This document shows positions 33,210 through 55,489 of a stretch of DNA of 64,000 bases, in pieces. This stretch comes from Granulicella sp. L46 (GTDB lineage Bacteria; Acidobacteriota; Terriglobia; Terriglobales; Acidobacteriaceae). Numbering within the stretch: the first letter of the stretch is position 1; every line of letters begins with the position of its first letter. Made by a program: the position numbers and the translations under genes. The notes under the pieces are model-generated. The model was not told the origin of the DNA, made no database searches, and was given only the letters and a program-made list of their open reading frames with translations. The DNA lies in assembly GCF_009765785.1 (NCBI RefSeq), contig NZ_LMUT01000012.1:953425-1017424 (forward strand), written 5' to 3'.

Positions 33210-33647
33210 ATTCTGTCCCTTCGCGTTGGTTGAATTTCGTTGACGTTCGACCCAGCGATTACGCCTTGCTCATCCCCCGCGAGCAATACTTGCTTCTGCC
33301 TTCACCTCGACGTACGCAGCGTGCGCAACATTTACCCGCCCTGTTGCCCAAGCATGGAGACTTGCACTCAAAAGGAATACACCGGCACTCCGTTGTCGTG
33401 AACTGTAACAACTGACAGGTTTATGGGGGGCGGCCGGGAGGTTGGGAAGGCGCAGGGCGGTAGACATCCGGAACGTCGAATGGGGGTCCAACGCCCGCGG
33501 AGACGCGCGGTCCACCCAACGTGTTGAAGCTCATAGTCTTGCGCCAGGTTGAGCGCTGACATGGCTGGTAGACCCCGAGAGTCCCGGGTTTAGCCTCACC
33601 CTATCGTGAGAGTCTAAGCTACGCCTCACGATTGTTGATGCGGTGAA
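33210..33647. other. Gene-free stretch upstream of the sulfatase
   Basis: About 440 bp with no convincing reading frame. It holds the regulon dyad at 33403-33418 with its predicted -10 at 33374-33379, giving a leader of about 160 bases before the sulfatase start, and the terminator hairpin of the gene to the right. Confidence 0.6.
33403..33418 (-). promoter_or_regulatory. Regulon dyad CTGTAACAACTGACAG (sulfatase-FGE unit)
   Basis: CTG-N10-CAG dyad. Read toward the sulfatase, TATTCC (33374-33379) starts 24 bases after it. 193 bp before the start codon at 33209. Leftmost copy found. Confidence 0.7.
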
Positions 33648-33671
33648 AGCGCCGAAAGAGATTTCGGCGCT
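33648..33671 (-). terminator. Perfect hairpin at the stop of the DUF481 gene
   Basis: AGCGCCGAAA-GAGA-TTTCGGCGCT: a 10-bp perfect stem with a 4-base loop overlapping the stop codon of the minus-strand gene at 33670. Followed on that strand by only a short T run, so it is a probable but not textbook terminator. Confidence 0.6.
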
Positions 33672-34731
33672 ACTTGTTACCAAACGTCCAACTCAGACCC
33701 GATTGCGATCCGAAGTCACTGCCGGAAAGGTGATTGGGAGGCTGACTGTCAAAGCTGCTATAGAAGGAAACGTTCCAGGAAAGGTTACTCACAATCTTAA
33801 TGTAATAGGTCGCGTTCATATTGAATTTCACTCGACCGCCTTGAGCGATGATTGGTAGAAGATAGGCTGTGACGTTCGCATTTGTTTTATTGAATCGGAA
33901 GAATTGAATATTCCCAGCGATCAGGCCTGATGCCAGGTTTTGCGAGGCTGTGTCCAGATAGGCGGTATTTTGTCCGGCAAACCCAGCAAATATTGAGATT
34001 TGCGTTTGATTTGTGTTCTTCACGTATCGACCGACGCCAGCGCCTTCCGTGACCTGACTGTTTATGCCTTGCTCGGAACTTTGCAGGAAGACACCCATAC
34101 CGTTGTAGAACCAATTTTTCGAGCGCATGAGGTGGTAGGCGTCGAGGTTCAGTTGGTTGCGGGTGGACTTAGCGGCGCCGGTACTGTCGGCGAGGGTTGA
34201 GCTGATGCTGGCACCGGCGGCCCATCGTTCTCGCGGGTAATTAATTTGCGCACCCAGGCTGTACTGCGTCGATTGGTTGCCCTTGGAGTAAATGATTCCA
34301 GAATCGATGTTGCCGTTGAATCGTTGGAGGAACTTCGTCGAGGTCACGTCCATCGTGACGATCTTGGGGGACTCGATCTCCACTTTCGGTCCGGCTACCT
34401 CTACAACCTCAATCATAATGGGTCTGCCGGTCGGACCATCGGTAGTGTTGAGCTTCCCGGTGTATACCGAACCGTCCTCGGTCTTCACGAGGAACAGCTG
34501 CTTACTCTCCACATGAGCAACTTCCGACCATTGAACAGAGCTCGTTCCCAGTATGTATTTCATGCTTACGTAGAGCACGCCGGCCTTCAGCCCTTTGATC
34601 TCACCGGTAAGGCGGTCGCCGTTCTTCATGATGATCACATCTGTGCTTTCCCTTGCGAATAAAGGCGTGGTAGCAAAGAGAAGGAAACCCAGGGCGACGA
34701 TAAGCTTGCTCACAACCGGTTTGGTTCTCAT
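33670..34731 (-). CDS. DUF481 family outer-membrane protein
   Basis: 353 aa. A signal peptide (LIVALGFLLFATTPLFA) is followed by an N-terminal NGDRLTGEIKGLKAGVLYVSMKY module, then a DUF481 beta-barrel region (GNIDSGIIYSKGNQSTQYSLG onward) ending with the outer-membrane-like WTFGNK. The start was set at 34731 because GGAGG precedes it; the ATG at 34749 contains that site. Downstream of the CYTH gene (188-bp gap, same strand) and paralogous to the protein at 45763. Function unknown; members are often induced by stress. Confidence 0.82.
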   Translation of the reverse strand: MRTKPVVSKLIVALGFLLFATTPLFARESTDVIIMKNGDRLTGEIKGLKAGVLYVSMKYILGTSSVQWSEVAHVESKQLFLVKTEDGSVYTGKLNTTDGPTGRPIMIEVVEVAGPKVEIESPKIVTMDVTSTKFLQRFNGNIDSGIIYSKGNQSTQYSLGAQINYPRERWAAGASISSTLADSTGAAKSTRNQLNLDAYHLMRSKNWFYNGMGVFLQSSEQGINSQVTEGAGVGRYVKNTNQTQISIFAGFAGQNTAYLDTASQNLASGLIAGNIQFFRFNKTNANVTAYLLPIIAQGGRVKFNMNATYYIKIVSNLSWNVSFYSSFDSQPPNHLSGSDFGSQSGLSWTFGNK

Positions 34732-34919
34732 GGCCGATTCATCCTCCATCGAGCGAATGGTGCGTTGTCATTGCGATGCACGTTCCAGGGTCACACCTGG
34801 TGCAATTTGGCCGTCACACTCCCGGCGTCCGACCCAGCGGACCTTTACTTACGGCATGAGCTTGAGGTGGCTACGACATTTTGGAGCCGCTTCACCATGT
34901 CTGGCGGGGCTAATAGAAG

Positions 34920-35672
34920 TCAATGGGGTGGCGACGCTTCATGCTTCAATCCCCTGAGCACGGCGCTGGTTTTCGTCTCTTGATTGGCGCTTAGCGACAG
35001 ACCTTTTAATTTCACTATGCGGTGCAAGTCCGTATACTTCGATTCCCACCCATTTGACGCGCTCTTAGCAGACAATTCGAGGAGACTGTCTCCGGGAAAC
35101 TCCCAATATTCCAGTGTGAGTTTGCCAAATGGAGACTCTGAGGGAGTCGCCCACGTTGTTGAGTGGATGTCGGGAGTCCTTCTCACCCGGGACCAGTTAA
35201 TCGAAACATGGGCCTCTCTTAAGAGTTCCCGTTGTTGAGAGCTGAGAGCGCTGAAGAGGTCGTCACCGCCTTCAGGTATCTCGCGATCCTTGTAGTTTTT
35301 CCCGACCGAATAAGAGGTGTTCGCTCCCGCTTCCGTTCGATCTATCTCGCACCCAAATTGCTCACGGAGCTTTGAGCTTACGATCTGATTGTTGCCTTCA
35401 GGCAAGCGGACCTTTACCGTGAGGTCATTTTTAGCGCCCTGCCTGACTCGCACGATCACGCCCTGGTTGAGGAGGCTGAGATTGCCGGTGTCAAAGAAAT
35501 AGACTTGGCTGGTCGTTTGCTTTTCGAAGCTCAGGGAAGCCAGCACGGACTTGATGGTCGAAGGTACGAGCAGGAGCTTGATCTCGACGGGACACGTTTC
35601 TTGAGCGTGTATGGCGGAGCACAACAGCAACACGATTAGGGGTGAAAATGCCCGCTTCCAGCTACGCCTCAT
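34920..35672 (-). CDS. Secreted CYTH-domain-like protein
   Basis: 250 aa from ATG 35672 (MRRSWKRAFSPLIVLLLCS then AIHAQ signal peptide). PVEIKLLL, VYFFDTGNLSLLNQGVIVRVRQG and DLTVKVRLP match the CYTH/triphosphate-tunnel pattern (ExK strand, YFDT, RVR, LTxK). Known CYTH enzymes (adenylate cyclase CyaB, thiamine triphosphatase, inorganic triphosphatase) are cytoplasmic, so export is unusual. The ATG at 35696 is in frame, but its apparent AGGA site is the -10 of the regulon promoter (TSS about 35697), so it would be leaderless. Confidence 0.68.
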   Translation of the reverse strand: MRRSWKRAFSPLIVLLLCSAIHAQETCPVEIKLLLVPSTIKSVLASLSFEKQTTSQVYFFDTGNLSLLNQGVIVRVRQGAKNDLTVKVRLPEGNNQIVSSKLREQFGCEIDRTEAGANTSYSVGKNYKDREIPEGGDDLFSALSSQQRELLREAHVSINWSRVRRTPDIHSTTWATPSESPFGKLTLEYWEFPGDSLLELSAKSASNGWESKYTDLHRIVKLKGLSLSANQETKTSAVLRGLKHEASPPH

Positions 35673-35732
35673 CGACCTTGCAGAATGATCTTGCATCGTT
35701 TGGATCCTAAGTTGGGAGATGCGCGAATAGAC

Positions 35733-35748
35733 CTGTCAGAAATAACAG
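35733..35748 (-). promoter_or_regulatory. Regulon dyad CTGTCAGAAATAACAG (between CYTH and phosphatase genes)
   Basis: On the minus strand TAGGAT (35704-35709) starts exactly 24 bases after the dyad, directing transcription of the CYTH-DUF481 unit. In the plus direction only TGAACT occupies that position, so control of the phosphatase gene is less sure. Confidence 0.75.
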
Positions 35749-35799
35749 TTTCCAATCCGCGATGATCGTGGTGAACTGTTTCTCATGGCCAAGGGACCG

Positions 35800-36322: not shown

Positions 36323-37033
36323 CTAGTCCTTTGGAGGTTTCGTCGGGCATTGAGCATCGAAGGCGGCCTGCATCTTGCGCAGTTTCAGCACGCCATAGAA
36401 CACGGTGATCACCATCGCCACAACCAGAACCCCATCAAGGTGTCTCTCCATGTCGAAGGAGCCTTGGCGATTGGCTATGTAGCCCGAGGCTACCAAGACG
36501 AGAATCCCAAGGTTGATGATCCAGTTCACTGGTTTCGACACAATGTAGTCCAAAGTCCCGAACCCACCCAGCTGGTAAAGCATGAATGGCAGGATTGCGA
36601 CCATCGGCAGCAGTTCCGATGCGCCCAGGGTCGGGTCAACGGTACCTGGCGTTATGGCGTGGAGCAGCCGGCTATGAGCCAGTTGATGGAATAGCGCCGG
36701 GATTGCACAGAGTAGCGGCACCACGGCAAGCAGCTCTAGCACTAGCGACCCGCTCCATGTACCGATTTTTGATGTCGTATCGGCGCCCTCGCCCGACTGT
36801 TGGGTGCCGATGAAGAGGCCACCCACGATGGCCGCCGCGCTGGAAAGCATCAGCAATTCGATGGTGATGCCAAAGCTCTCCGGCTCCCCCGCCTTGAGTA
36901 GCAGCATCGCTAGAAAGCCAGGGGTGTAAAACATGACGCGGACGAGTTTCGCCCAAACGCGGGCGTCTCGCTCAGGGGGAAGAATTGGGAGCGGACGGCC
37001 GTCGGTTCCAACTGTTGGTCTTGCCTTCGACAT
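36323..37033 (-). CDS. Multi-pass membrane protein, unknown family
   Basis: 236 aa with about six hydrophobic segments (near residues 30-45, 58-78, 95-120, 140-165, 170-190, 200-220) and a proline-rich start (GRPLPILPPERDAR). AGAGGAC before the ATG at 37033. I do not recognise a family. A regulon dyad stands 88 bp upstream. Confidence 0.7.
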   Translation of the reverse strand: MSKARPTVGTDGRPLPILPPERDARVWAKLVRVMFYTPGFLAMLLLKAGEPESFGITIELLMLSSAAAIVGGLFIGTQQSGEGADTTSKIGTWSGSLVLELLAVVPLLCAIPALFHQLAHSRLLHAITPGTVDPTLGASELLPMVAILPFMLYQLGGFGTLDYIVSKPVNWIINLGILVLVASGYIANRQGSFDMERHLDGVLVVAMVITVFYGVLKLRKMQAAFDAQCPTKPPKD

Positions 37034-37121: not shown

Positions 37122-37137
37122 CTGTCAGAATTAACAG
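37122..37137 (-). promoter_or_regulatory. Regulon dyad CTGTCAGAATTAACAG
   Basis: TAGAGT (37093-37098) starts 24 bases after it on the minus strand, in front of the membrane protein gene at 37033. Confidence 0.75.
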
Positions 37138-37349: not shown

Positions 37350-37365
37350 CTGTCACATCTGACAG
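37350..37365 (+). promoter_or_regulatory. Regulon dyad CTGTCACATCTGACAG
   Basis: GATACT (37390-37395) starts 25 bases after it on the plus strand; the gene at 37628 is 262 bp downstream. Lies in a gene-free stretch (37034-37627) that otherwise shows nothing recognisable. Confidence 0.7.
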
Positions 37366-37627: not shown

Positions 37628-38230
37628 ATGCACAGACAAGTAAAAATTGCAAAGGTCGTCATCGGTGCTGGGCTTCTGGTCGGATTGTTCATGGTTTCCT
37701 CCTTGCCTGTATCCGCGGGAACAAAGACCGAAACGATTGAAGCTCAAGCGATGGGAACGGGAACTCAGCTTGGTCAGAATATCGGAGTGACTCTGAACAT
37801 CTATGAGTACTCAACCCAGGCGGACAGGCAGATCCTCGTTACCGCATTCAACAAGGGCCAGGGCCAGGGATTGTCGAACGCTCTTCAGAAGATGAAGGCG
37901 GTGGGCCATGTTGAGATTACCGGAACTCTGGGCTATGACTGTTCCTTTATCAAGATGACTCAGACGCCGACGGGCCGAAAGATTGTCTTCGTGACCAATC
38001 GCCAGATTCGGTTCGGCGAAGCTTTCTTTGACACGCAATCTCAGTCGTTCAATCTCACCGCGGGCGTTCTCGAAATCAACGACCAGGACAAGAGCAAGAG
38101 CACAGGCGTCCTATACCCTGCTGCCGAGCTAGTGCTCGATAGCCAGGGCCAACTGCAATGGGACCTCACACAAAACCCATGGAAACTGGTCGACGTGCTC
38201 GACTGGGCAGGGACTCCCGGCGTCAACTAG
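37628..38230 (+). CDS. Secreted protein of unknown function
   Basis: 200 aa. Signal peptide MHRQVKIAKVVIGAGLLVGL ending near PVSAG. The mature part is soluble-looking with regular strands (VTLNIYEYSTQADRQILVTAF, GHVEITGTLGYD) and no cysteine pair. GGAG 8 bases before the ATG at 37628 decides the start; the frame is open to 37481. First gene of a unit with the Cys-rich protein 102 bp downstream. Confidence 0.7.
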   Translation: MHRQVKIAKVVIGAGLLVGLFMVSSLPVSAGTKTETIEAQAMGTGTQLGQNIGVTLNIYEYSTQADRQILVTAFNKGQGQGLSNALQKMKAVGHVEITGTLGYDCSFIKMTQTPTGRKIVFVTNRQIRFGEAFFDTQSQSFNLTAGVLEINDQDKSKSTGVLYPAAELVLDSQGQLQWDLTQNPWKLVDVLDWAGTPGVN

Positions 38231-38988: not shown

Positions 38989-39639
38989 CTAGGATCGTGG
39001 CGTTAGAATCTGCTCCTGAATTGCATATTGAACAAGATCAGCATTTGTTTGCAGGCAAAGGCGCTGCATCAGTTTGTACTTATGAAACGCTACGGTGCGG
39101 GGAGTCAGCGTGAGGATGTATGCAACTTCTTTCATGGTCCGCCCTTCCGCTAACAACTTAAGGACTTCGAGCTCTCGATCGGTGAGTCTCTTCCGGCTGA
39201 GATGCGGTTCGGTTTCGAGGGCTAAACCTTCGATGGCGTGCAGGGTTGATGCAGAGATGTAGCGCTTGCCTTTCAACACTTCGCGGACAGCACTCACGAG
39301 GTTCTCGTCGTCAAGGGATCTTCGCAAATACCCCGATACTCCGCCCCGCGCTGCGTCGGCGGCGATATCAGCGTCAATCGTGGATGTAATGTACACAATC
39401 CGGACCATGCGAGTCAGTTTTTTGAGGCGCGCACGAGTCTCGAGATGATTGGTCCAACTTTCGCCCAGATCAAGGATGATGACGTCGGGTTTAAGGTCTC
39501 GCACCGCTGCCATGAGGGCAGGTTCGTCCGCAACGATGCTTACGACCTGAAACTCCGGCTGCAGAAGCTTTGCGTATTCCTCAGAGAGGCGAATTTGATC
39601 GCTTGCGATAAGCACCCGCGGCCACGTTACGGGACTCAT
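38989..39639 (-). CDS. NarL/LuxR-type response regulator with degenerate receiver domain
   Basis: 216 aa. Receiver domain (residues 1-125), then a LuxR-type helix-turn-helix (LTDRELEVLKLLAEGRTMKE and LTLTPRTVAFHKYKLMQRL). The acidic pocket reads LIASDQ instead of two acidic residues, and the conserved lysine is replaced (GYLRRSL), while the phospho-acceptor D in VIILDLG remains; phosphorylation may be altered. AAGGAG supports ATG 39639. No kinase nearby. Its recognition helix nearly equals that of the regulator at 42699. A dyad and -10 lie 301 bp upstream. Confidence 0.85.
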   Translation of the reverse strand: MSPVTWPRVLIASDQIRLSEEYAKLLQPEFQVVSIVADEPALMAAVRDLKPDVIILDLGESWTNHLETRARLKKLTRMVRIVYITSTIDADIAADAARGGVSGYLRRSLDDENLVSAVREVLKGKRYISASTLHAIEGLALETEPHLSRKRLTDRELEVLKLLAEGRTMKEVAYILTLTPRTVAFHKYKLMQRLCLQTNADLVQYAIQEQILTPRS

Positions 39640-39940
39640 TCTGTGCTCCTTCGACCGGCTTTGCGAGATCAAGGCCTGCTTGACTCGACCTATCAGCCGA
39701 TCCGTCTGTAGATCGGGATTCGGCAATGGCCGCTTCCCCATGTGCAATTCGTCGCGGAATGAAAGGTTCTTGCAGCTACTTGTTACACGAGGTCGATCAA
39801 CTGAGGCAGAAGCTCGGCACTAAGTCCCACATCGACCGGAAAATTCAGACGACTCTCCAGATGACGGATTCTGAATCGTCATTTCGACTGTTGGCATTTC
39901 ATCTAACTGGCAGAATAATTTGGCTGTTAATCGGCGACTA

Positions 39941-39956
39941 CTGTCAAAAAGAACAG
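39941..39956 (-). promoter_or_regulatory. Regulon dyad CTGTCAAAAAGAACAG
   Basis: TATTCT (39912-39917) starts 24 bases after it on the minus strand, directed at the response-regulator gene at 39639. The 337-bp gap holds an overlapping plus-strand frame without coding signs. Confidence 0.72.
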
Positions 39957-41430: not shown

Positions 41431-41829
41431 CTACGGGCGGTGCCCTTGAGGAGAAATAAAGATCTGGCTTGAGAGCACAGACCTTAAAGCTAATCCGAGA
41501 TCCGCATTCATTCGAGATTTGAAGACGTACCCTCGCCCGCCCGCGCCAATTGCCGCCCCAATGAAGTCAGGGTCTTCATGAATAGACAAGAATACGATTT
41601 GACCCGCGTAACCCTGTTGGCGCACCTGCCGGGCGATCTCGATGCCGCTGTGCTGTCCCATGGAGATATCCAGGACCATGAGATCCGGCCGAAGTCTCGA
41701 CACTTCAGCGCATACAGAGCCGCCATCCACGACCGTGCCAATGACCTGATAATTGCTCTCAAGCATTTCCACGACGTGATGCAAGAAATCTCGATTATCG
41801 TCGGCAAGTAGAACCCGTGGTGATGACAT
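41431..41829 (-). CDS. Single-domain response regulator (receiver only)
   Basis: 132 aa CheY-like receiver with all key residues: LLADDN, phospho-acceptor D in LMVLDIS, FLSIHED and the lysine in GYVFKSR. No output domain. It could act as a phosphate sink or signal by protein contact. Own dyad and -10 upstream. May be transcribed with the methyltransferase gene 170 bp downstream. Confidence 0.85.
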   Translation of the reverse strand: MSSPRVLLADDNRDFLHHVVEMLESNYQVIGTVVDGGSVCAEVSRLRPDLMVLDISMGQHSGIEIARQVRQQGYAGQIVFLSIHEDPDFIGAAIGAGGRGYVFKSRMNADLGLALRSVLSSQIFISPQGHRP

Positions 41830-41948: not shown

Positions 41949-41964
41949 CTGTCACTTTTAACGG
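41949..41964 (-). promoter_or_regulatory. Regulon dyad CTGTCACTTTTAACGG
   Basis: One mismatch in the second arm. TAGATT (41920-41925) starts 24 bases after it on the minus strand, upstream of the receiver-only gene. Confidence 0.7.
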
Positions 41965-42294
41965 TATGTTGAAGTTATCTTTCAACTTGAACTTTCGTGA
42001 CCCGTAAGTTTTGACAGCTGGCTTGATGGCGATACCTCCGGACGAAAGTCCAGCCAGGATAGCCAGCCATAGAGCCGAGTGAGATGGATTGCGGTGTGAC
42101 GTTGTGGATTCTGTAAGAAACGTGGCGCGGTATTGCGGAGGTAGTTTTTCTGTACGCGTCGCCGTCGAGCTTTAGTCGGCGCAGGGTCCGTCAATGGGCC
42201 ACCACTCCATCAGCAGCCCACCGAGGTTGGCCGGGTGCGCTCGCATACCTCGAGGCCACGGATGGGCGTGCTAGATTCTTCCGGGCATCTCACA

Positions 42295-42310
42295 CTGTCA
42301 GTTTTGACAG
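42295..42310 (+). promoter_or_regulatory. Regulon dyad CTGTCAGTTTTGACAG
   Basis: A perfect dyad arm match. TAAGAT (42334-42339) starts 24 bases after it on the plus strand, directed at the NarL-type regulator gene (start 42699, leader about 350 bases). Confidence 0.78.
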
Positions 42311-42570: not shown

Positions 42571-42702
42571 ATGAACATTTCATCTTTGAGAAAATCGGTT
42601 CGACAGGTCAATGACTTAGGGGCGCAAGCGCCTGGAGTCATGTGCCAGTCCAGTCACGGGCCAGATTTCCCCAAACTTGAACGGTACAAGGGGGAGCTTT
42701 GA
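42571..42702 (+). CDS. Possible 43-aa leader ORF coupled to the response regulator
   Basis: ATG at 42571 with AGGA upstream opens a frame (MNISSLRKSVRQVNDLGAQA at the N-terminus) whose stop TGA overlaps the TTG start of the next gene as TTGA. The overlap suggests translational coupling, but composition gives little proof that it is coding. Confidence 0.3.
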   Translation: MNISSLRKSVRQVNDLGAQAPGVMCQSSHGPDFPKLERYKGEL

Positions 42703-43352
42703 GCCAAACCAATCGTCCTCGAGTTCTGATCGCCGATGATCATTTCTTTGTAGCTGAAGCCTGTGCGCGAATTCTGGAGCCAGAGTTAGAAGTCGCTGGC
42801 ATTTTTACGGATGGACAGTCTCTTTTGGATGCCGTTCCGGCGCTCAAACCGGATGTCGTCCTCCTTGATGTTGGAATGCCGCTGATGAATGGGCTGGAGG
42901 CAGGCAAGCGAATCAAACGGCTGCAACGCACAGTCAAGATTGTATACTTGACGATGAACCCCGATCTAGGCGTCGCAGCTGAGGCCTTCCGGTGCGGGGC
43001 ATCCGGCTACCTGCTGAAAACCTCCGCCGGCACAGAGCTCATAACGGCAGTTCGCGAAGTTCTTAAAGGCGAATACTATGTCTCTCCTCTCGTCACGAGT
43101 GATACCGACGGCTTTTTTCTCGATATCCGGGTGTCGGACATGGGGCAGGAGATTCTCACGAGCCGACAACGAGAGGTCCTTCAGCTGCTGGCGGAGGGAA
43201 GATCGATGAAGGAAATCGCTTATATCCTCAAGCTGACTCCTCGCACCGTTGCGTTTCATAAATACAAGGTTATGGAACGGTTGCGCGTGAAAACCAACGC
43301 GGGATTGGTGCAGTATGCAATCCAACAACACGTCATCTCGCCAGGAATGTAA
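42699..43352 (+). CDS. NarL/LuxR-type response regulator
   Basis: 217 aa from TTG with GGGGGAG upstream. Intact receiver (LIADDH, phospho-acceptor in VVLLDVGMP, VYLTMN, lysine in GYLLKTS) plus a LuxR-type DNA-binding domain (SRQREVLQLLAEGRSMKEI and LKLTPRTVAFHKYKVMERL). The C-terminal domain is nearly identical in the recognition helix (TPRTVAFHKYK) to the regulator at 38989. No histidine kinase is encoded nearby. Best candidate activator of the dyad regulon; its own promoter carries a dyad, implying autoregulation. Confidence 0.9.
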   Translation: MSQTNRPRVLIADDHFFVAEACARILEPELEVAGIFTDGQSLLDAVPALKPDVVLLDVGMPLMNGLEAGKRIKRLQRTVKIVYLTMNPDLGVAAEAFRCGASGYLLKTSAGTELITAVREVLKGEYYVSPLVTSDTDGFFLDIRVSDMGQEILTSRQREVLQLLAEGRSMKEIAYILKLTPRTVAFHKYKVMERLRVKTNAGLVQYAIQQHVISPGM

Positions 43353-43474: not shown

Positions 43475-44884
43475 TCAGTTGGTAGCTACGGGTTCGGCTT
43501 CGACCGGCGAGAGTTCCAGCTTGCTGAATGGCGACGCAGGATTTTGGTCTCCATGACATCTGCGAAACTTGTTGCCGCTGCCGCAAGGGCAGAGCGCATT
43601 GTGTGTCTGCTCCGCATCGCGATCGGCTATGATCCCCATGACTTCAGATGGGGCGCGACGCTTCTGAAGCAACTGGGCCATCAGCACCATGGTCGGGCCC
43701 GTATGCATGAAGAACAGTTCAAGCCCTTCGCAAAGATAGTTCTGTCCAGGCTCTCCGTCGCGCGAGACGCCAAACCGGTCCTTGGGGCAGCCACCGTTGC
43801 AAAGGTTCCTCACTTTACAGTCCTGGCATTGCTTAGTGAGCAGGTTGCGTTTGTCATCACCGAACTTACGCTGTTCAGGCGACGCCACCATTTCCAAAAG
43901 AGTCTTCTGATGGATGTTGCCGAGAAGGTATTTGGGCTCAACGAAATGGTCGCAGGAGTAAAGGTCCCCGTTGTACTCCAGCGCCGGCCCGTACCCGCAG
44001 GTTGGGGCGTGGATGCAAAGCAGATGACGGCCGAAAAATGCTTCGAGCGTCACATCGAATAACTGAACAAACACTTCGCCTACATCATGGCGAACCCATT
44101 CCTCGAAGATGTCAATGAGGAACTGGCCGTATTGCCTGCTGCCCACGGTTCGATTGGTGACCATGTTGCCGGACTGCGTGTAAAGCATGCGCTGGCCGCC
44201 AGCCTGCTCACTCCATCCCAGGTTTGCGATATTGATCGTGTCAGCGTTGGCTCGCTCGACAATGGGGATGAACTGGACCCACTTTGCACCCATTTCGTCG
44301 CGAAAAAAACGATAGACCGCACGACCGTGTTTTTCGTTGGCGGCATTCACCGTGCATAGGACGTTGAAGTCCACATCATGCTTGCGCAGGTAGCGCCAGC
44401 CCTTCATTACCTTGTCGAAGGTGCCCTGCTTGCCGCGGTCGAGGCGATAGGTGTTGTGGATCTCGCGGGGGCCGTCGCAACTGATACCGACAAGAAAATT
44501 GTGCTCCTTGAAAAAGGCACACCACTCGTCATCCAGGAGGATTCCGTTGGTCTGAAACGTGTGTTCAATGGTTTGCCCGGGCCGACGGTACTTCTGCACG
44601 ATTTCGATGGACTTTCGAAAGAACTCGACCTTCATGAGCGTGGGCTCGCCGCCCTGCCAGGCAATCGTCACGGTCGGCGTGCGATGCGAATCCAGGAGTT
44701 GCTGGATGTAGAGTTCGAGTGTTTCGTCCGACATCCGATGCTTTTCGTTCGGATACAGGGCGTCTTTGGACAGGAAAAAACAATAGGTGCAATCAATGTT
44801 GCAGGTTGACCCGCTTGGCTTTGCCAGAAGGTGAAAACCCGGCGGCGCATCCTGGGGACGACTAGCATCAGCCATCAAATTCAT
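43475..44884 (-). CDS. Anaerobic sulfatase-maturating enzyme (radical SAM/SPASM) with C-terminal SEC-C motif
   Basis: 469 aa. CNIDCTYC is the radical-SAM C-x3-C-x2-C motif near residue 29. GFHLLAKPSGSTCNIDC and IAWQGGEPTLM are typical anSME text. SPASM cysteines follow (CGYGPALEYNGDLYSCDHF, CQDCKVRNLCNGGCPKD). It oxidises the sulfatase Cys or Ser to formylglycine without oxygen. The C-terminus carries CPCGSGNKFRRCHG, a SEC-C zinc motif not usual in anSME. Start uncertain among ATG 44884, 44875 and TTG 44908. The sulfatase client is 11 kb to the left. Confidence 0.88.
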   Translation of the reverse strand: MNLMADASRPQDAPPGFHLLAKPSGSTCNIDCTYCFFLSKDALYPNEKHRMSDETLELYIQQLLDSHRTPTVTIAWQGGEPTLMKVEFFRKSIEIVQKYRRPGQTIEHTFQTNGILLDDEWCAFFKEHNFLVGISCDGPREIHNTYRLDRGKQGTFDKVMKGWRYLRKHDVDFNVLCTVNAANEKHGRAVYRFFRDEMGAKWVQFIPIVERANADTINIANLGWSEQAGGQRMLYTQSGNMVTNRTVGSRQYGQFLIDIFEEWVRHDVGEVFVQLFDVTLEAFFGRHLLCIHAPTCGYGPALEYNGDLYSCDHFVEPKYLLGNIHQKTLLEMVASPEQRKFGDDKRNLLTKQCQDCKVRNLCNGGCPKDRFGVSRDGEPGQNYLCEGLELFFMHTGPTMVLMAQLLQKRRAPSEVMGIIADRDAEQTHNALCPCGSGNKFRRCHGDQNPASPFSKLELSPVEAEPVATN

Positions 44885-45013
44885 GTGTGCATCTTTCTGC
44901 ACCGCCAAACGAGATAGGCAGCCACTTTGGAATTTGGTTGATCAGAGTCGCTGTTCCCGACAGAGATTCGTCATCCTTCTCAGGAAACTAATCCGTTCGT
45001 TTCACGGTGGGAA

Positions 45014-45029
45014 CTGTCAAATATGACAG
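45014..45029 (-). promoter_or_regulatory. Regulon dyad CTGTCAAATATGACAG
   Basis: Perfect arms. TAGTTT (44985-44990) starts 24 bases after it on the minus strand; anSME start is 129 bp away. Confidence 0.8.
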
Positions 45030-45053: not shown

Positions 45054-45554
45054 TTACTTATGCCGAAAGTGACTTGCCACCAGCAGACTGCCTGTGATTG
45101 CAAGGATGAGCCACAAGACTGCAATTGCGATGAAAACAAAGAATCTGGCCAGGGATCTAACCTCTGTTTTTCTCTGCACCTCGGCCGCTTCAGCGCGATC
45201 GCGGCACTCCTGAAGCACTTCTGGAGGCATGACCTTTTGAATCAGCTTGAACCCTACTACCAGAACGACCAGATCATCCATGAATCCGATTACGGGGATA
45301 AAACTCGGAATAATCTGAATAGGGCTAAGCAGATAGCCGGCCGCGCAGGCGGCAATCAGTCGTGCGTACCAGGGCGTCTTGGGATGTTTGAACGCAAAGT
45401 AGAAAACGTGAGCTTGCTTTTGGAGTTCTCGCGCCTTTTCAGCCCAAATCGCAATACGTGTGGGCAATCGTCGCACCCCGCGAACCCGTCGCACGGCAGG
45501 AATCGAATCCGGAAGAATCGAATTGTCGAATTCGCTTTCCAATGTTACCCCCAC
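45054..45554 (-). CDS. DUF1232 (YkvA-like) membrane protein
   Basis: 166 aa from GTG. PWYARLIAACAAGYLLSPIQ and IIPSFIPVIGFMDDLVVLVVG form the DUF1232 core, followed by a charged helix and a C-terminal membrane helix (residues 138-160). Function unknown. Own regulon promoter 112 bp upstream. Confidence 0.82.
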   Translation of the reverse strand: MGVTLESEFDNSILPDSIPAVRRVRGVRRLPTRIAIWAEKARELQKQAHVFYFAFKHPKTPWYARLIAACAAGYLLSPIQIIPSFIPVIGFMDDLVVLVVGFKLIQKVMPPEVLQECRDRAEAAEVQRKTEVRSLARFFVFIAIAVLWLILAITGSLLVASHFRHK

Positions 45555-45666: not shown

Positions 45667-45682
45667 CTGTCAACATTTACAG
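45667..45682 (-). promoter_or_regulatory. Regulon dyad CTGTCAACATTTACAG
   Basis: TAGGAT (45638-45643) starts 24 bases after it on the minus strand; 112 bp before the DUF1232 start. Confidence 0.75.
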
Positions 45683-45762: not shown

Positions 45763-46833
45763 TCAGAACTTCCAGCCGATACTGCCGGCCGTTCCAAAGT
45801 CCGAATGATTTAGATTCTGCGGTGGTCGGCTATCGTAGTTCAAGTAGTAGCTGACACTCCAGTAAAGGCGTCTGGCGAGTCTAAGTTTCACTGCTGCATT
45901 CAGGTCCAGGCGCACTCGTCCCGGGTCGGTAATGCTCGGAAACACCTGAGTATTTACGAGGAAATTTGTAGTCCTGAAACGAAAGAAGTTGAATTGTGTG
46001 CCGACAACCGCTTCGGCGCTGTTTCCGGTTTTGCTCGATGTCGGGTCATCCTCATAATGCTCGTTGTTCCAGTCTGCGCCAACATATGCCGCAATCAGGC
46101 TGGTATTTGTCATGCGGAAATTATGTCCGACGGCCCCGCCCAAGATTGTGCGCAGATCCAGGTTCTGCTCGCCATTGTGTTGAAAGCCTACTAGTCCCAT
46201 GTAAACGTTCCGGGGTGAACGGAGTTGTCTTGCAACGTTCGTTTGAAGATCAAGGCGAAAATTCTGATCAGATCCGCCACCGCTGAAACTGGAGCCCAAA
46301 TCAACACCCGCTGACCATAGGGGTTTCGCATATACAACGCTTGAATCGAAGTTGTATTGGACGCGATTTTGCTGCTTTGTATAGTTGAGACCAGAGTCAA
46401 TGGACCCGTGCAGGTTCGCCCAGAAACCAACGTCATTTTGTTGAAGGGCAACTATCTCGAGCGAAGGTATGAGATCGGTCTTAGGGCTCCCCGTGACCTC
46501 CACCACGAATTTGTCCGGCGAGGCTTCGTCTGCCACCTTCTTAAGGCTGCTGATAAATCGCTCTCCTTTTTCGTTGGTGACAATAAAATTGTATTGACTC
46601 TCGATGCGAACAACCTTGGTCCAGTCGACTGCGATTGTGCCTTCCCCATTTGCCAGCCGGACATACAAGTAGCCCTTTTGAAGCTGCATGATCTCGCATG
46701 TCATCCGATCGCCATTCGCGAAGACGATGACGTCCTTCTTGTCTCTTGCCCAGCACGTGGCGGATAAAACAAACAGGAAAACTATTGTCCAGACTGAGGA
46801 GGAGAGGAACGGAAGGCGATCATGAATATTCAT
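45763..46833 (-). CDS. DUF481-like outer-membrane protein, paralog of the one at 33670
   Basis: 356 aa. Signal peptide to about CWARD; then NGDRMTCEIMQLQKGYLYVRLA, matching the N-terminal module of the protein at 33670; then a beta-barrel region (GSIDSGLNYTKQQNRVQYNFD) with an aromatic end (IGWKF). GAGGAGG in front of ATG 46833 sets the start over ATG 46848. Unknown role in the outer membrane. Confidence 0.82.
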   Translation of the reverse strand: MNIHDRLPFLSSSVWTIVFLFVLSATCWARDKKDVIVFANGDRMTCEIMQLQKGYLYVRLANGEGTIAVDWTKVVRIESQYNFIVTNEKGERFISSLKKVADEASPDKFVVEVTGSPKTDLIPSLEIVALQQNDVGFWANLHGSIDSGLNYTKQQNRVQYNFDSSVVYAKPLWSAGVDLGSSFSGGGSDQNFRLDLQTNVARQLRSPRNVYMGLVGFQHNGEQNLDLRTILGGAVGHNFRMTNTSLIAAYVGADWNNEHYEDDPTSSKTGNSAEAVVGTQFNFFRFRTTNFLVNTQVFPSITDPGRVRLDLNAAVKLRLARRLYWSVSYYLNYDSRPPQNLNHSDFGTAGSIGWKF

Positions 46834-46944
46834 GTTTGTCCTCCTCATTTCGTTGATTTGAGAGTACGGGCTCGGCTGGTCATCTCGTCGAATTCAGACG
46901 AATTCCCGCCAGTGTTTTATAACAATCTACGGTCTTCAAATGAA

Positions 46945-46960
46945 CTGTCAGTTCTAACAG
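46945..46960 (-). promoter_or_regulatory. Regulon dyad CTGTCAGTTCTAACAG
   Basis: TATAAA (46916-46921) starts 24 bases after it on the minus strand; 111 bp before the DUF481 start. The rest of the 46834-47267 gap shows nothing recognisable. Confidence 0.8.
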
Positions 46961-47267: not shown

Positions 47268-48116
47268 CTACTCTTTTCGCAATGGGAAAAAAACGTGCGC
47301 TGCCAGGCCGATATCATTGACCTGCTCATTCGGCTTCTTGCCGGTGTTGTTCTGATGCTCATAATAAGCATCAATCTGCACGTGGCTACCAATAGGGAAA
47401 ATGCCGCCGGCCTCAAGCTGCGTTGTACTCCATTTTGAGTATTGGCTTTCGTAGTAGACCTCAGCGTTAAGATAAGGAGTCACGTGATACGAGTGGATTG
47501 CGAAAGTTCTTTGCACAGCCAATCTGTTCCTGTAGCGCCAGCTAAAGACTCCGGCTTTCCAGTCAAGATCTGCGCGATTTCTGTCATCTAGCAGAAACGA
47601 ACCCTTCACTGGCAATGCAACCGTCGCGATCGGCATGAATCTATTTTCGACGGGCTCATTGGGAGCGGTTATGACACGATACCCAGCCTCTACAACGAGG
47701 GGCCTCTTCTTTGCGTCGTCCAGGTCAAAGGCGGTGATCTTTTTCAACCTGAGAAGAGGCTTGAAGTAATACTGTAGGCTTGGGCCCAAAGTTGCTTGAA
47801 GCGGAACACCCCCATCGCGATCCCCCTGTGCTTGAAGATACGCTCGCATCTCAGGATTGATCTTGAAGTAAGTATCGATCTCCGGCAACAATTGCGGCGA
47901 TTGCGCTCTCGCAAGAGGGCCCGCGAATGCGAAGAACGCCAGTGCCTGGATTCCTCGCTTGAGGGTAAGCGACCTAAAGGATGAGAGGGGATCGTCTGAC
48001 TTTTTTCCAATCGACTGAAGCCAGCGGAAAGCGCTGCCGATGCGGCTGCGGTCCGAAGAGGCCGAGTCGGGCGCGGAATTCGCGAGGTTCGAAATATTCG
48101 GAAGCGGCATTTTCAC
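47268..48116 (-). CDS. DUF2490-like outer-membrane protein
   Basis: 282 aa. The C-terminal 210 residues form strand-rich repeats typical of DUF2490 (WKAGVFSWRYRNRLAVQRTF, YHVTPYLNAEVYYESQYSKW, VQIDAYYEHQNN) ending HVFFPLRKE. The hydrophobic export stretch is unusually far in (residues 54-71, ending ARAQS), so either the leader is long or the true start lies downstream. Start given at GTG 48116; ATG 48110 is equally possible. Confidence 0.75.
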   Translation of the reverse strand: MKMPLPNISNLANSAPDSASSDRSRIGSAFRWLQSIGKKSDDPLSSFRSLTLKRGIQALAFFAFAGPLARAQSPQLLPEIDTYFKINPEMRAYLQAQGDRDGGVPLQATLGPSLQYYFKPLLRLKKITAFDLDDAKKRPLVVEAGYRVITAPNEPVENRFMPIATVALPVKGSFLLDDRNRADLDWKAGVFSWRYRNRLAVQRTFAIHSYHVTPYLNAEVYYESQYSKWSTTQLEAGGIFPIGSHVQIDAYYEHQNNTGKKPNEQVNDIGLAAHVFFPLRKE

Positions 48117-48472
48117 AGTTTCCTGGTGCTTTCGAGTCTAGGGAGTCCTCAAATGAAATCAAACTGACAGTATTAACAGGCCGGCCGTTCGCCTTGAATT
48201 GATTGTTATCAGAGCTTAGAAACTCTGATTCGCCCACGCTGAAGGTCAAAACACCGGTGCAGCTTGCCCACAGATAGAGATAGGAGGATGCCAGGTAAAC
48301 TATTTTTCCTAGAGCACGTCTAAAGTTGTTGGGCCTAAAGTTTTGACCGTCCTAGAAGCTGTCATTCGCTCTGGGGCGTGACGATGAGAAATAGGACAGG
48401 TCGTTCATAAACGCGAAGGTCGGCCGGCCTTCTAACGGAAATTACCCCTCATGGCGGGAAGTTGGTAATAAG
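48117..48472. other. Intergenic stretch between DUF2490 gene and receiver gene
   Basis: About 356 bp. It holds the regulon promoter at 48164 for the left gene. Before the right gene there is only a half-site (CTGTCA at 48359) without a matching -10, so I call no promoter for it. Confidence 0.45.
48164..48179 (-). promoter_or_regulatory. Regulon dyad CTGACAGTATTAACAG
   Basis: One mismatch in the first arm. TAGACT (48135-48140) starts 24 bases after it on the minus strand; leader of only about 12 bases before the DUF2490 start. Confidence 0.72.
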
Positions 48473-52064: not shown

Positions 52065-52475
52065 CTAAATTGACTCATCGAGTTCCCCCACCGGACCGAG
52101 AACGGATTCCGCACCCTCCCCGTCCGATCTTTGAACTTTGAGTGCAGCCGATTGCCAAGGCCAGTGTCCCTCGGTTTCGACTACCAACGACCAACTGAGA
52201 AATGTTCTGACAACAACCAGCGCGCCAAGTATCTCCAGCCCTTTGGCGGTCAGGTCTAGCAACACTGTGCGGATCACATCTGCCGCGACAAGAATTTCAA
52301 GTGCCAACATCATCGACCGAGCGAGAAGGTGCTTGTATTCACGGTAGGAGTGTGGTGTCCGCTTCGCCAATTTCAGAACGTAGCGCACGAAGCCAAAGGC
52401 GATCGAGACGACGATAATCACAACTGCCAGCACCTGGATTCCGTCTGACGACATTTCGATCCATTCGCGCAGCAT
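52065..52475 (-). CDS. DUF1622 membrane protein
   Basis: 136 aa. Helices near residues 12-32, 50-65 and 78-95, with EYKHLLARSMMLALEILVAADVIRT as family signature. GAGGGAAGAG precedes the ATG. First gene of a same-strand series (DUF1622, TRIC, small protein, DUF202, large membrane protein), probably led by the dyad promoter at 52588. Function unknown. Confidence 0.82.
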   Translation of the reverse strand: MLREWIEMSSDGIQVLAVVIIVVSIAFGFVRYVLKLAKRTPHSYREYKHLLARSMMLALEILVAADVIRTVLLDLTAKGLEILGALVVVRTFLSWSLVVETEGHWPWQSAALKVQRSDGEGAESVLGPVGELDESI

Positions 52476-52587: not shown

Positions 52588-52603
52588 CTGTCATATTTGA
52601 CAG
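52588..52603 (-). promoter_or_regulatory. Regulon dyad CTGTCATATTTGACAG
   Basis: Perfect arms. TATCCT (52559-52564) starts 24 bases after it on the minus strand; 112 bp before the DUF1622 start. Confidence 0.8.
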
Positions 52604-52714
52604 GGCGCTGAAAGGGGTTTGCCACTTGCAAATACACCTCCTACCCGCCGTAGAGGAAAGGTAACTTCAACTGGATACTTGATTAAAGCAACGTTGAGCT
52701 TCTGCATGACAACA

Positions 52715-52730
52715 CTGTAACTAGTGACAG
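52715..52730 (+). promoter_or_regulatory. Regulon dyad CTGTAACTAGTGACAG
   Basis: TTAACT (52755-52760) starts 25 bases after it on the plus strand, directed at the channel-like gene (205 bp) or the small frame before it (111 bp). Confidence 0.65.
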
Positions 52731-52841
52731 TTATCTGGACGTCTATGCGTGTGGTTAACTGACCCGCAGTCCTGCTGGAAACTGCCCGACACGTGCGGCT
52801 GCCATTGCCGCTCCAACCCTAGTGTCATGAGAGGTGCTTCA

Positions 52842-52943
52842 ATGTCGGCTCAAAGCAATGTCTTCGACACTGGCCAATTAGAATCTCCCGGCGATAGGAA
52901 GCTGGGAACACACATGTTCATCGGTTGGTCTATCCATGAGTAG
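52842..52943 (+). CDS. Possible 33-aa upstream ORF
   Basis: ATG at 52842 with AGAGGTG upstream (MSAQSNVFDTGQLESPGDRK at the N-terminus), ending 8 bp inside the next gene (ATGAGTAG overlap). The following gene has no clear ribosome site, so coupling is plausible. The distance to the dyad (111 bp) equals the preferred distance in the regulon. Coding is not proven. Confidence 0.33.
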   Translation: MSAQSNVFDTGQLESPGDRKLGTHMFIGWSIHE

Positions 52944-53391
52944 TCTTTTTTCCGTCCATTGGGGCCTGGATTGGCTGTGGAGTATTCCACTCATAGTTCT
53001 TACAGTTCTGTTCCATGCAATCGTGCTCACCATCCTCAACCGCGGAGTTCATTCCCTGATGACGATGAACGGCGGCAAAAGCTTCCGTCACATGGTGTCT
53101 CTCTTCGCCCTTGGCGGAGCCGCGCTATGTGCGACCGTGGCCCACGGCTTAGAAGCATGGTTCTGGGCCATCGCCTACTTTTTCTCTGGCGCAATTTCTA
53201 ACCAGAAAGCTTCTATGGAGTTCTCCCTCGGTGCGATGACCACGTTTGGTGGCAATCCTATTGCCCTGGGAGCAGGATGGGAGCTGATGGGGTCGCTGGA
53301 AGCCTTAAGTGGTTGGATCGCGTTTGGACTTACCGCGGCTTTTCTATTCACAATTATGCGGAAAGTGTGGAGCACAGATCAGCTGTTGTGA
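52936..53391 (+). CDS. Ion-channel-like two-helix membrane protein
   Basis: 151 aa. Helices near residues 14-36, 58-78 and 115-140, and between the last two SMEFSLGAMTTFGGNP sits where two-helix K+ channels have a pore loop (TTVGYG). The filter glycine-tyrosine is replaced, so K+ selectivity is doubtful. Ends with a charged cytoplasmic tail. Alone on this strand; TRIC, also a cation channel, is in the divergent operon. Confidence 0.6.
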   Translation: MSSLFSVHWGLDWLWSIPLIVLTVLFHAIVLTILNRGVHSLMTMNGGKSFRHMVSLFALGGAALCATVAHGLEAWFWAIAYFFSGAISNQKASMEFSLGAMTTFGGNPIALGAGWELMGSLEALSGWIAFGLTAAFLFTIMRKVWSTDQLL

Positions 53392-53637
53392 TTGGAGGCT
53401 TATCCGAAAGGCTCCAGACATTTCGCGGGGATGCTGGGGTTCAAAACAAGCATTCGACGAAGCGCACTCGTACTTACGGCTCGCTCTATTTCTGCTCTCT
53501 GGCACATCGGCCAAACGCAAGGCTTAAGTAGATGATGCGATGTGATGTCTCGACACCTCGCCCGATGCCGAGACGCCTCTGAGCCATTCAAACATCGAGC
53601 GGGCTGCTCAAATTAGTAATCGAGCCTTCAGCGAATT

Positions 53638-55047
53638 TCAATTCTTTGACTGCGGCGGAGGCCGCGATCCGGAATTCTTGTTCGGCGCCGGCCTATTGTT
53701 TGGCTGTGCTGGTTTCGTCTTGGGCGGTGCTGGCCTTGGATTCGGCTGTGCTGGCCTCGTGTTGGGCTGTGCCGGCCTCGTGTTGGGCTGTGCTGGCCTG
53801 GTGTTGGGCTGAGTCGGCCTCGTATTCGGTTGCGCTGGTCGAGTATTCGGCTGTGCGGGTCTAGTACTCGGCTGTGTTGGTCGAGTATTCGGCTGTGTTG
53901 GTCTAGTACTCGGCTGCGCCGGCCTGGTGTTTGGTTGTGTAGGCCTGGTTCCGGGCTGCCCCGGCTTCGGTTGAGGAGCGGGTTTGGTCACAGGCGGCCG
54001 ATTCCCATTGGGCTGCGTCGGCCTGGTTTGTCCGGGCGGATTTCCGCCGGGTCTGGTTGTATTGGGAGGTCTTGTGTAGCCGGGCTTTGTGGTCGGTTGG
54101 CCGGGTCTTCCCCCAGGCTTAGGTTGCTGCACGGGTGGCCGGCCGTTTCCAGGTCGATTTCCGGGGCGATTATTTGGTCCCCAGGCTGGACGGTTTGCCG
54201 GGAGAGGACGAGGGGTGGGGGGACGATAGTTCGGTGGGCGATAGTTCCATTTGCCGCCATATCCCGGCCTCGCGTTATAGGGGATCGGGCGGGGACGGTA
54301 CCAATAATTCGGCGGACGATAAGGAGCTCGCCATCCCGCCCAAACTGTGTGGTTGTAATAGGCCCGGTGCGACGACCAGTTCCATCCCCAACCACCCCAT
54401 CCCCACGGCCGTGTGCTCACGACAAGGATGTTGATCGAGATTGGCGGTCCGTACGTGACGTAGACCGGGGTCGGCGAACGGTAATATACCGTCGATGGGT
54501 TGTAGATCGGCACGTAGACGATCTGCGGGTTTGCAGGTTGGATCACATAGACAGGTTGGGAAGCCACCTGTTGAACCTGTACGGTCTGCTGCTGATTGCT
54601 TTGCAACGTTCCTGCTGCGTACGCCTGGGCGCGTAATCTCTGGATCGATGCACTGACCGCTGCCTGGTCGGCGGTAAATGCCTCACCGATGGCGGCGAAA
54701 TCGTCGACGTCTTCCGCCATCATGTTGATCACGTCGGGGAACATCACAAGGGCGATAAATGCCGAGTCAAATCCCTGCTTCTCTGCCGCGTCGGTAAGCG
54801 CTGCGCCCTGTAGACCAGGATTTTGCTGCAGCCAATTCGATACGTCCAGAATTTCTTGTGGATTGGTCGATGCCGTTGTGATCTGCGCCAGAAGAGAATC
54901 GGGGTAGAGCGCAACAGGAGCAAGCAGCTGGTCCAGTTCTTGTGGCGTGGGAATCGGAGCCTGCGCGCGTAGCAATGATCCGGTCCACGATAAGACTGAG
55001 AGGGTAAGCAATAAAACTAATGCGATAGAGCGTGATTTCCGTTGCAT
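53638..55047 (-). CDS. DUF3300 protein with Pro-rich heptad-repeat tail
   Basis: 469 aa. Signal peptide to about LLRAQ. The DUF3300 domain follows (LDQLLAPVALYPDSLLAQIT, ILDVSNWLQQNPGLQ, VMFPDVINMMAEDVDD), up to about residue 230. The rest is Gly/Trp- and Pro/Arg/Asn-rich, ending in about 12 copies of a seven-residue TRPAQPN-type repeat. GAGG 7 bases before ATG 55047; the frame is open to 55101. Exported, probably envelope-associated; function unknown. Confidence 0.85.
   Translation of the reverse strand: MQRKSRSIALVLLLTLSVLSWTGSLLRAQAPIPTPQELDQLLAPVALYPDSLLAQITTASTNPQEILDVSNWLQQNPGLQGAALTDAAEKQGFDSAFIALVMFPDVINMMAEDVDDFAAIGEAFTADQAAVSASIQRLRAQAYAAGTLQSNQQQTVQVQQVASQPVYVIQPANPQIVYVPIYNPSTVYYRSPTPVYVTYGPPISINILVVSTRPWGWGGWGWNWSSHRAYYNHTVWAGWRAPYRPPNYWYRPRPIPYNARPGYGGKWNYRPPNYRPPTPRPLPANRPAWGPNNRPGNRPGNGRPPVQQPKPGGRPGQPTTKPGYTRPPNTTRPGGNPPGQTRPTQPNGNRPPVTKPAPQPKPGQPGTRPTQPNTRPAQPSTRPTQPNTRPTQPSTRPAQPNTRPAQPNTRPTQPNTRPAQPNTRPAQPNTRPAQPNPRPAPPKTKPAQPNNRPAPNKNSGSRPPPQSKN
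53698..53949 (-). repeat. 21-bp tandem repeat coding for TRPxQPx units
   Basis: Ten regular units (TRPAQPN, TRPTQPN, TRPAQPS, TRPTQPS) and two degenerate ones at the end nearest the stop codon (PRPAPPK, TKPAQPN). Copy number is likely to vary between strains by slippage. Confidence 0.85.
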
Positions 55048-55160
55048 CAAACACCTCGTCAAGATGTCGCTTCTCTGCTTCGCCGAGAAAATGGTCGCCA
55101 AATCCTCTTCGCGCTTCTAACCCATCAAGCCAATGAACGCCCATTTCAATCATGGGGATA

Positions 55161-55176
55161 CTGTCACCGATGACAA
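55161..55176 (-). promoter_or_regulatory. Regulon dyad CTGTCACCGATGACAA
   Basis: Last base deviates. TTCATT (55132-55137) is at the -10 position, the weakest -10 of the set. 113 bp before the DUF3300 start. Confidence 0.62.
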
Positions 55177-55386
55177 GCCGTTAAATCTTGCGCTGTCCGG
55201 GATCAGAAAGCAAACGCCTACAATCGATTCCTCCGCAAGAGGCATTGAAAATCTTCGCAAGCATACCTTTAACTGCTGTCCTTGCTAGGCTTTGGCGGTC
55301 TAACCCCTCCGACGCGAGCATGCAGACAACTGGTGAACGCAAAGAATTGTTCGCCGCCCCGTCTGGATGTCGACTGGCTATGGCAA

Positions 55387-55402
55387 CTGTCATTTTTGCC
55401 AG
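55387..55402 (+). promoter_or_regulatory. Regulon dyad CTGTCATTTTTGCCAG
   Basis: One mismatch in the second arm. TAACCT (55426-55431) starts 24 bases after it on the plus strand; 87 bp before the sortase start. Confidence 0.72.
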
Positions 55403-55489
55403 TTGCGGGGTCTTAACGATCTCTCTAACCTGCCCTTCATGGTTGCAACCGTCCAGGAAGAATTCGTTGACGCACGATACTAGTCATCC

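Follow-up and report, generated by a model that had tools for sequence, protein, structure and literature searches.

Intergenic DNA in a 22-kb gene cluster of Granulicella sp. L46, a member of the Acidobacteriota, carries repeated copies of an inverted repeat, CTGTCA-N4-TGACAG, and we consider it likely that this dyad is the operator through which a NarL/FixJ-type response regulator with the helix motif RTVAFHKY acts as an activator. The cluster lies in a 64,000-nucleotide stretch, hereafter the window, of contig NZ_LMUT01000012.1 (C5:953425-1017424 in our numbering), which belongs to a 5.48-Mb genome in 39 contigs. The dyad, its spacing to a promoter element, its enrichment across the genome and its association with one clade of regulators are all computational observations.

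All 15 dyads noted in an earlier, sequence-only reading of the window are present where it had placed them. In the strict form CTGTNA-N4-TNACAG the window holds 10 copies, compared with a mean of 0.02 and a maximum of 1 in 100 dinucleotide shuffles. Five of the 15 miss the strict form (39941, 41949, 48164, 55161 and 55387), and because looser dyad patterns are only about two-fold over chance in the window (48 against 20.7 on both strands; 40 against 20.8), these imperfect copies rest on their position and promoter context. The 13 promoter hexamers quoted as starting 24 bases beyond the dyad (offset 24) proved letter-exact on re-reading, 12 of them beginning with TA. The two hexamers placed one base further on are weak, since neither GATACT after 37350 nor TTAACT after 52715 begins with TA, and the latter appears only in the rightward reading. 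At 45014, 45667, 46945 and 52588 the noted near-constant distance to the start codon was recovered as 111-112 bp with our own start calls. The copies in the window, including a possible weak sixteenth, are as follows.

33403..33418, minus strand: dyad CTGTCAGTTGTTACAG, TATTCC at 24, toward the sulfatase gene
35733..35748, minus strand: dyad, TAGGAT at 24, toward 34920-35696 (a CYTH-like match that does not reach the Pfam cut-off)
37122..37137, minus strand: dyad, TAGAGT at 24, toward 36323-37033 (no family found)
37350..37365, plus strand: dyad, weak GATACT at 25, toward 37628-38230 (no family found)
39941..39956, minus strand: imperfect dyad, TATTCT at 24, upstream of the response regulator gene 38989-39747
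41949..41964, minus strand: imperfect dyad, TAGATT at 24, upstream of the receiver-only gene 41431-41829
42002..42017, no strand assigned: possible weak sixteenth copy CCGTAAGTTTTGACAG, 53 bp right of 41949
42295..42310, plus strand: perfect dyad, TAAGAT at 24, 388 bp upstream of the response regulator gene 42699-43352
45014..45029, minus strand: perfect dyad, TAGTTT at 24, toward the anaerobic sulfatase maturase gene
45667..45682, minus strand: dyad, TAGGAT at 24, toward the DUF1232 gene 45054-45554
46945..46960, minus strand: dyad, TATAAA at 24, toward the DUF481 gene 45763-46848
48164..48179, minus strand: imperfect dyad, TAGACT at 24, toward the DUF2490 gene 47268-48116
52588..52603, minus strand: perfect dyad, TATCCT at 24, toward the DUF1622 gene 52065-52475
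52715..52730, plus strand: dyad, weak TTAACT at 25, toward 52936-53391 (no family found)
55161..55176, minus strand: imperfect dyad, TTCATT at 24, toward the DUF3300 gene 53638-55101
55387..55402, plus strand: imperfect dyad, TAACCT at 24, toward the sortase gene

Across the whole genome the strict dyad occurs 20 times, against 2 occurrences of a reversed-pattern control, and 10 of these copies lie outside the window, on C5 (2), C9 (1), C11 (3), C19 (2), C31 (1) and C37 (1). The claim that no copy exists outside 33.4-55.5 kb thus holds for the strict form within the window and fails for the genome; similarly, computation supports the proposed single regulon, which is nevertheless not confined to 22 kb. 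All 20 strict dyads are intergenic, which argues against a pattern equally common in coding or unrelated DNA. This count, like all distance measures, uses genes called by a simple coding-score caller of our own, so start codons are approximate and small genes may be missed or misplaced; the receiver-only gene 41431-41829 was one that it missed. The copy at C31:4307, CTGTGACCGATCACAG, has half-sites that differ from those of the other strict copies and may be unrelated to the rest. When the dyad was searched for together with a following T and a TAnnnT element at offset 24, allowing up to three mismatches on both strands, 45 matches were found, whereas the reversed pattern gave 13; two mismatches or fewer are present in 29 of the 45, with three places among these 29 counted on both strands and the control total not split by mismatches.

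The spacing between dyad and promoter element recurs in genomes that the sequence-only reading had not seen. For this comparison, dyads with at most two mismatches were taken from the source genome and from stretches of seven others (G053, G059, G064, G067, G081, G136 and G148) and oriented by their flanking genes only; 60 sites were kept (17 own, 43 other), 46 ambiguous ones were dropped, and an uncounted number inside genes or with cut flanks was excluded. Among the 43 sites from other genomes, the TAnnnT element begins at offset 24 in 20 cases and at offset 25 in 7, while every other offset from 1 to 45 has 0 or 1. The corresponding counts for the 17 own-genome sites are 9 and 1, which leaves 16 of 43 and 7 of 17 sites with the element at neither offset. 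A further set of 36 sites in named loci (19 ambiguous ones set aside; L107 and L116 excluded as already studied) has TAnnnT at 24 in 13 cases, at 25 in 3 and at 23 in 3; a further 5 have it at offset 1, with TAGAC at several of the proteobacterial sites, and another 3 at offset 29. A T directly follows the dyad in 88% of sites in the other genomes and 82% in the source genome, and the -35 slot retains a T or TT and little else. If the -10 element ends at -7, its offset places the dyad at -51 to -36, centred at about -43.5. These results support the activator-type position near -43, the weak -35 and the likeness to a lux box that had been proposed.

We have good confidence, from sequence comparisons, that the regulator of the dyad belongs to the RTVAFHKY response regulators, two of which are encoded among the dyads together with a protein that consists of a receiver only.

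42699..43352, plus strand: P0001, NarL/FixJ-type response regulator with helix TPRTVAFHKYKVM and receiver motifs kept; the proposed regulator
38989..39747, minus strand: P0002, paralogous regulator with the same helix as P0001; ASDQ for ADDH and YLRRS for YLLKT
41431..41829, minus strand: receiver-only CheY-like protein

Both regulators match PF00072 and PF00196 above cut-off, giving an N-terminal receiver and a C-terminal GerE/LuxR helix-turn-helix (HTH) domain, and the closest solved structures by sequence are VraR, DesR and NarL. In NarL, the residue aligned with the Ala of TVAFHKY is a Lys, which we take to be the base-contacting Lys188. P0001 has the phosphorylation motifs ADDH at 12, LLDV at 55 (Asp57) and YLLKT at 104 (Lys107); two of these motifs are not found in P0002, which may work without phosphorylation. 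A regulator copy in genome G067 (L059:5980-6597, plus strand) has a gap at the usual phospho-acceptor position, and this copy and P0002 are possibly phosphorylation-independent regulators of the same operator.

The altered receiver motifs of P0002, along with the pairing of some dyads (52588/52715 and 41949/42002), suggest that part of the control may be negative. Taken further, the same regulator could act mainly as a repressor or with mixed effect, which we regard as unlikely because a dyad held at a fixed distance upstream of the polymerase core site, beside a poor -35 slot, fits an activator. Pairs of dyads 37-81 bp apart (window 41949-42017, L041:16241-16337 and L062:6105-6157) suggest that tandem binding may occur at some promoters.

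The association between this type of regulator and the dyad was examined from the side of the regulator. Seven of eight genomes have an RTVA[FY]HKY regulator of the NarL/FixJ type near dyads within the loci retrieved, whereas G059 has its copy elsewhere, beyond the stretches that were retrieved. A profile, A1, made from an alignment of nine such regulators was used to scan genome contigs independently of dyads, and the best 80 loci of a longer list were considered. Among these 80, 37 encode an Ala-type helix (RTVA, RTIA and one GTVA), and a strict dyad is present in 30 of the 37, compared with 0 of 42 Glu-type loci and 0 of 1 Met-type locus (Fisher test for Ala versus Glu, 1.9e-15). The Ala-type loci contain 63 dyads in 511 kb with 0 reversed controls; the Glu-type loci contain no strict dyad in 651 kb, and the reversed pattern is absent from all 80. 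Two of the 37 (L107 and L116) correspond to the already studied G064:C9 and G148:C24. Dyad-bearing Ala-type loci are labelled Acidobacteriota, Nitrospira (L114, L118 and L137) and Pseudomonadota (L112, L120, L122, L123, L125, L126, L128 and L132), nearly all being metagenome bins that may be misbinned, while the Planctomycetota (L115) and Verrucomicrobiota (L119) loci contain no strict dyad. Terracidiphilus gabretensis S55 (L130) is a named relative that has the regulator together with 3 strict dyads in 20.6 kb. A dyad precedes a regulator gene in several loci, and one lies within about 95 bp after the regulator gene in L120, L122, L125, L126, L127, L128 and L180. In a tree, a branch supported at 100/99 separates all 42 Glu-type regulators from the Ala type, with the single Met row placed among the latter. 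As all Glu-type rows share one branch, we do not claim residue-level specificity from the Ala/Glu split.

A survey of 399 genomes of the class points the same way. At least five strict dyads occur in 24 of them: 21 of the 37 with an A1 match at E<=1e-80, versus 3 of the 362 others (Fisher test, 5e-22). The 313 genomes outside an earlier 150-genome set provide a fairer test, since A1 derives partly from the earlier genomes, and there the counts are 16 of 29 versus 3 of 284 (p 2e-16); because the genomes are related, the survey p values overstate independence. Contrasts are nevertheless seen inside single genera. Among g74 genomes, those that bear the regulator range from many dyads (G240, 29; G362, 25; G348, 22; G174, 11; G334, 7) to few (G244, 4; G365, 2; G405, 2), and those lacking a strong regulator match have 0-4.

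Several points weigh against our interpretation. The cut-offs of the survey (A1 E<=1e-80, five dyads) were set after the data had been seen, and for the first 150 genomes there is some circularity in the comparison, because A1 was built from regulators near dyads. Fewer than five dyads occur in 16 of the 37 regulator-strong genomes, and G340 (5 versus 6) and G136 (5 versus 5) are not above their own reversed controls. Seven of the 37 Ala-type loci have no strict dyad (L105, L109, L113, L115, L119, L129 and L158), and, with the Ala and Glu types split on one branch, the association with the helix is one at the level of the clade and not a series of independent events. Within the window, the 42295 and 39941 dyads are 388 bp and about 200 bp from the regulator starts, and no kinase was seen in the 27-64 kb part. 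Finally, three genomes have dyads and no regulator match (G453, 7; G169, 5; G282, 11; reversed control 1 each).

These three genomes, each with at least five dyads, would also be expected if another co-inherited regulator bound the dyad and the response regulator were a mere neighbour. CRP/FNR-type sites, for example, can be 5-N4-5 dyads, and the link to the response regulator is drawn from clade and neighbourhood. We nevertheless think such a regulator improbable: no second equally widespread DNA-binding family was met among the protein clusters that genomes share near the dyads (clusters that are part-annotated, and with no direct search for CRP/FNR), and in the Nitrospirota and Pseudomonadota bins the dyad accompanies the regulator even where most of the remaining neighbours are different.

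Some of the regulator-strong genomes with few dyads carry variant helices. The GTVAFHKY genomes G414, G385 and G065 have 0-1 dyads each, and RTIAFHKY genomes have 1 (G375), 3 (G058), 8 (G222) and 5 (G260). A site CCATTA-N4-TACTGG, with TAGCAT at offset 24, lies 3' of the GTVAFHKY regulator at L109:10664 and L195:2170. As a candidate operator for the GTVA type it was rejected, since CCANTA-N4-TANTGG was below its reversed control (1 versus 5, 2 versus 13, 3 versus 9), and our search for such an operator in three GTVAFHKY genomes found none.

A HisKA_3 kinase and a receiver-only partner, which several relatives encode next to the regulator or close by, probably supply the input to the proposed regulator. 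In G148, L112, L120 and L127 the genes for a HisKA_3 kinase and the regulator adjoin or overlap, with PAS domains on the kinases of G148, L112 and L120; in L052 they are a few genes apart. Receiver-only genes occur beside or near the regulator in G053, G064, G067, G148, L101, L114, L118 and L121. Elsewhere in the source genome there are 15 HisKA_3 matches, one of which (C11:19290) shares its contig with three dyads. Another, at C5:1633022, is about 1.8 kb from a composite site (C5:1631151-1631195), with no GerE match listed nearby, and is a candidate for the kinase of this system.

We therefore picture the switch, in conditional terms, as follows. A dimer of the regulator, presumably phosphorylated, would bind both hexamers of the dyad from about -51 to -36, beside the residual -35 slot, and would recruit RNA polymerase to the TAnnnT element 24-25 bases beyond the dyad. 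Its targets would include sulfatases, a radical-SAM sulfatase maturase, DUF481, DUF1622, DUF3300 and other proteins, the sortase and the receiver-only protein. Both regulator genes would be targets as well, and we infer positive feedback on them.

The predicted targets in the window are the sulfatase, the maturase, DUF481, DUF2490, DUF1232, DUF1622 and DUF3300 proteins, the sortase, the receiver-only protein, both regulators and genes without a family. Those with more specific assignments, and two adjoining genes, are listed here.

31680..33209, minus strand: sulfatase, target of the 33403 dyad
30526..31539, minus strand: FGE-type sulfatase-modifying enzyme, adjoining the sulfatase
43475..44908, minus strand: anaerobic sulfatase maturase, TIGR03942 above cut-off
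55490..56236, plus strand: sortase, passes the TIGR01076 cut-off; among class models nearest to class D, with scores just short of those cut-offs or lower
56239..57039, plus strand: sortase-adjacent protein, LPXTG-anchor match of 17.4 bits (cut-off 15.9, E 0.005)

Dyads precede further sulfatase genes elsewhere in the source genome (L032, L035 and L037), and sulfatase homologues form a cluster of 12 proteins in four of eight genomes. In relatives, the genes behind dyads encode sulfatases, OmpA-like proteins, DUF3300, DUF1254/DUF1214, an MscS-type channel and DUF4136, and in L127 carbonic anhydrase. The sulfatases L121:13058-15430, from a Chloracidobacterium bin, and L040:1742-4117, from G064, are 72% identical and both stand behind dyads; it is possible that this gene was transferred together with its operator. 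In seven of the eight genomes, homologues of the DUF3300 and DUF2950 proteins turn up repeatedly side by side in the loci retrieved (for example, L032:16599-19086, L053:680-2951 and L067:7118-9571). Homologous pairs of a sortase and an LPXTG protein are found near the regulator in L052, L054 and L070. The sortase was considered as the core of the system and rejected: sortase genes are present in 66 of 150 relatives, most without a strong regulator match, and some dyad-rich genomes have none listed. It is thus a target in some genomes and not a defining partner. An envelope regulon was also considered. First genes after dyads are modestly enriched in N-terminal hydrophobic segments (41 of 79 versus 167 of 433, p 0.03) and in transmembrane-like segments (36 of 79 versus 137 of 433, p 0.02), both scored by a rough method, and in G148 alone the N-terminal measure runs the opposite way; this bias is too weak to serve as a basis.

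The distribution of the system is patchy. The 27 congeners of the window genome have 0-2 dyads each, and their best A1 match is 1.2e-56 (G018), compared with 1.6e-104 in the window genome; the seven congeners in the class survey have no A1 match at E<=1e-62 and 0-2 dyads. The system is thus one that is gained or lost at short range. Our confidence is evenly divided on a broader proposal, that the regulator clade and its operator have stayed fixed across at least three phyla (Acidobacteriota, Nitrospirota and Pseudomonadota) while the targets turned over, as a portable cassette gained and lost within a genus. Here an operator, a promoter rule accurate to within roughly one base, a candidate regulator and a set of predicted targets all come from sequence alone, which also ties genes without an assigned function, such as those for DUF481, DUF1622 and DUF3300, the sulfatases with their maturase, and a Gram-negative sortase to one predicted switch.

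Our findings also bear on how this operator relates to known sites. Lux boxes are centred near -42.5, overlapping or abutting the -35 element. Were the dyad a true lux box, an N-acyl-homoserine lactone (AHL)-binding receptor of the LuxR type would occupy it and the regulon would respond to quorum sensing. The afe-box of AfeR, a LuxR-family protein of Acidithiobacillus ferrooxidans, provides a close parallel, as excerpts of its description give a medium palindrome model, GCTGTCAA-NN-TTGACAGC, with the half-sites and 4-nt spacing found here and a position centred at -43 that overlaps -35, matching the one predicted for our dyad (PMC3759942). It differs in being bound by an AHL receptor and in lying within a larger 30-bp palindrome, and its authors, in the same excerpts, report no other predicted site with perfect dyad symmetry (PMC3759942). 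Because the core of our operator equals that of the afe-box models, the site should not be called wholly undescribed, which corrects the sequence-only reading, to which no described regulon with this site was known. In the window genome, however, there is no match to the autoinducer-binding family PF03472 (the search did not extend to a LuxI-type synthase), and among 16 dyad-rich genomes, that of the window included, four have partial matches of 20.7-26.6 bits, in open frames of 725-883 codons; the dyad goes with receiver-containing regulators instead. An AHL receptor on the dyad is therefore very improbable, and two-component activation is the most likely mode of control. An operator core common to an AHL receptor system and to phosphorylation-type regulators would suit studies of recognition-helix specificity.

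Other systems share single features with the one proposed here. The class GN (marine proteobacterial) sortase system PdsRS likewise has a Gram-negative sortase with a two-component system nearby. The window sortase, however, scores 89.1 bits against the class GN model TIGR03784 (cut-off 158.25), and PdsR, which we take to be OmpR-type, differs from the NarL-type regulator here. The sequence of STY2, a StyR site of the StyS/StyR system, presumably differs from our dyad. As in our model, the response regulator StyR activates from about -40, but at one catabolic promoter and with the involvement of IHF, according to excerpts of that work (PMC2442086). In the excerpted text of a Desulfovibrio survey, CTGTCAT appears only as the E. 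coli PhoB direct repeat (PMC3333781), and the operators in the available part of another report are unrelated to the dyad (PMC545781). Our literature search yielded no recognised description of this regulon, mostly judged without full texts. Work on Acidobacteriota regulons, judged by title and the start of the abstract, included none on such a regulon, and to our knowledge few regulons of this phylum have been worked out.

A near relative in kind may be ComA of Bacillus subtilis. ComA is itself a NarL/FixJ-type response regulator. In the portion of the ComA study available to us, its box, bound by a dimeric HTH activator, likewise consists of inverted hexamers with a 4-nt gap upstream of the polymerase site (PMC4797271). 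It differs in its hexamer, TTGCGG instead of CTGTCA, in serving a Gram-positive quorum response and in having a second, direct-repeat motif (PMC4797271). By analogy with ComA, a NarL/FixJ-type regulator that uses a 6-N4-6 inverted repeat is a kind already known; what is new within the literature searched, as far as those searches go, is this member of it, the pairing of its operator with this regulator, and their spread across phyla.

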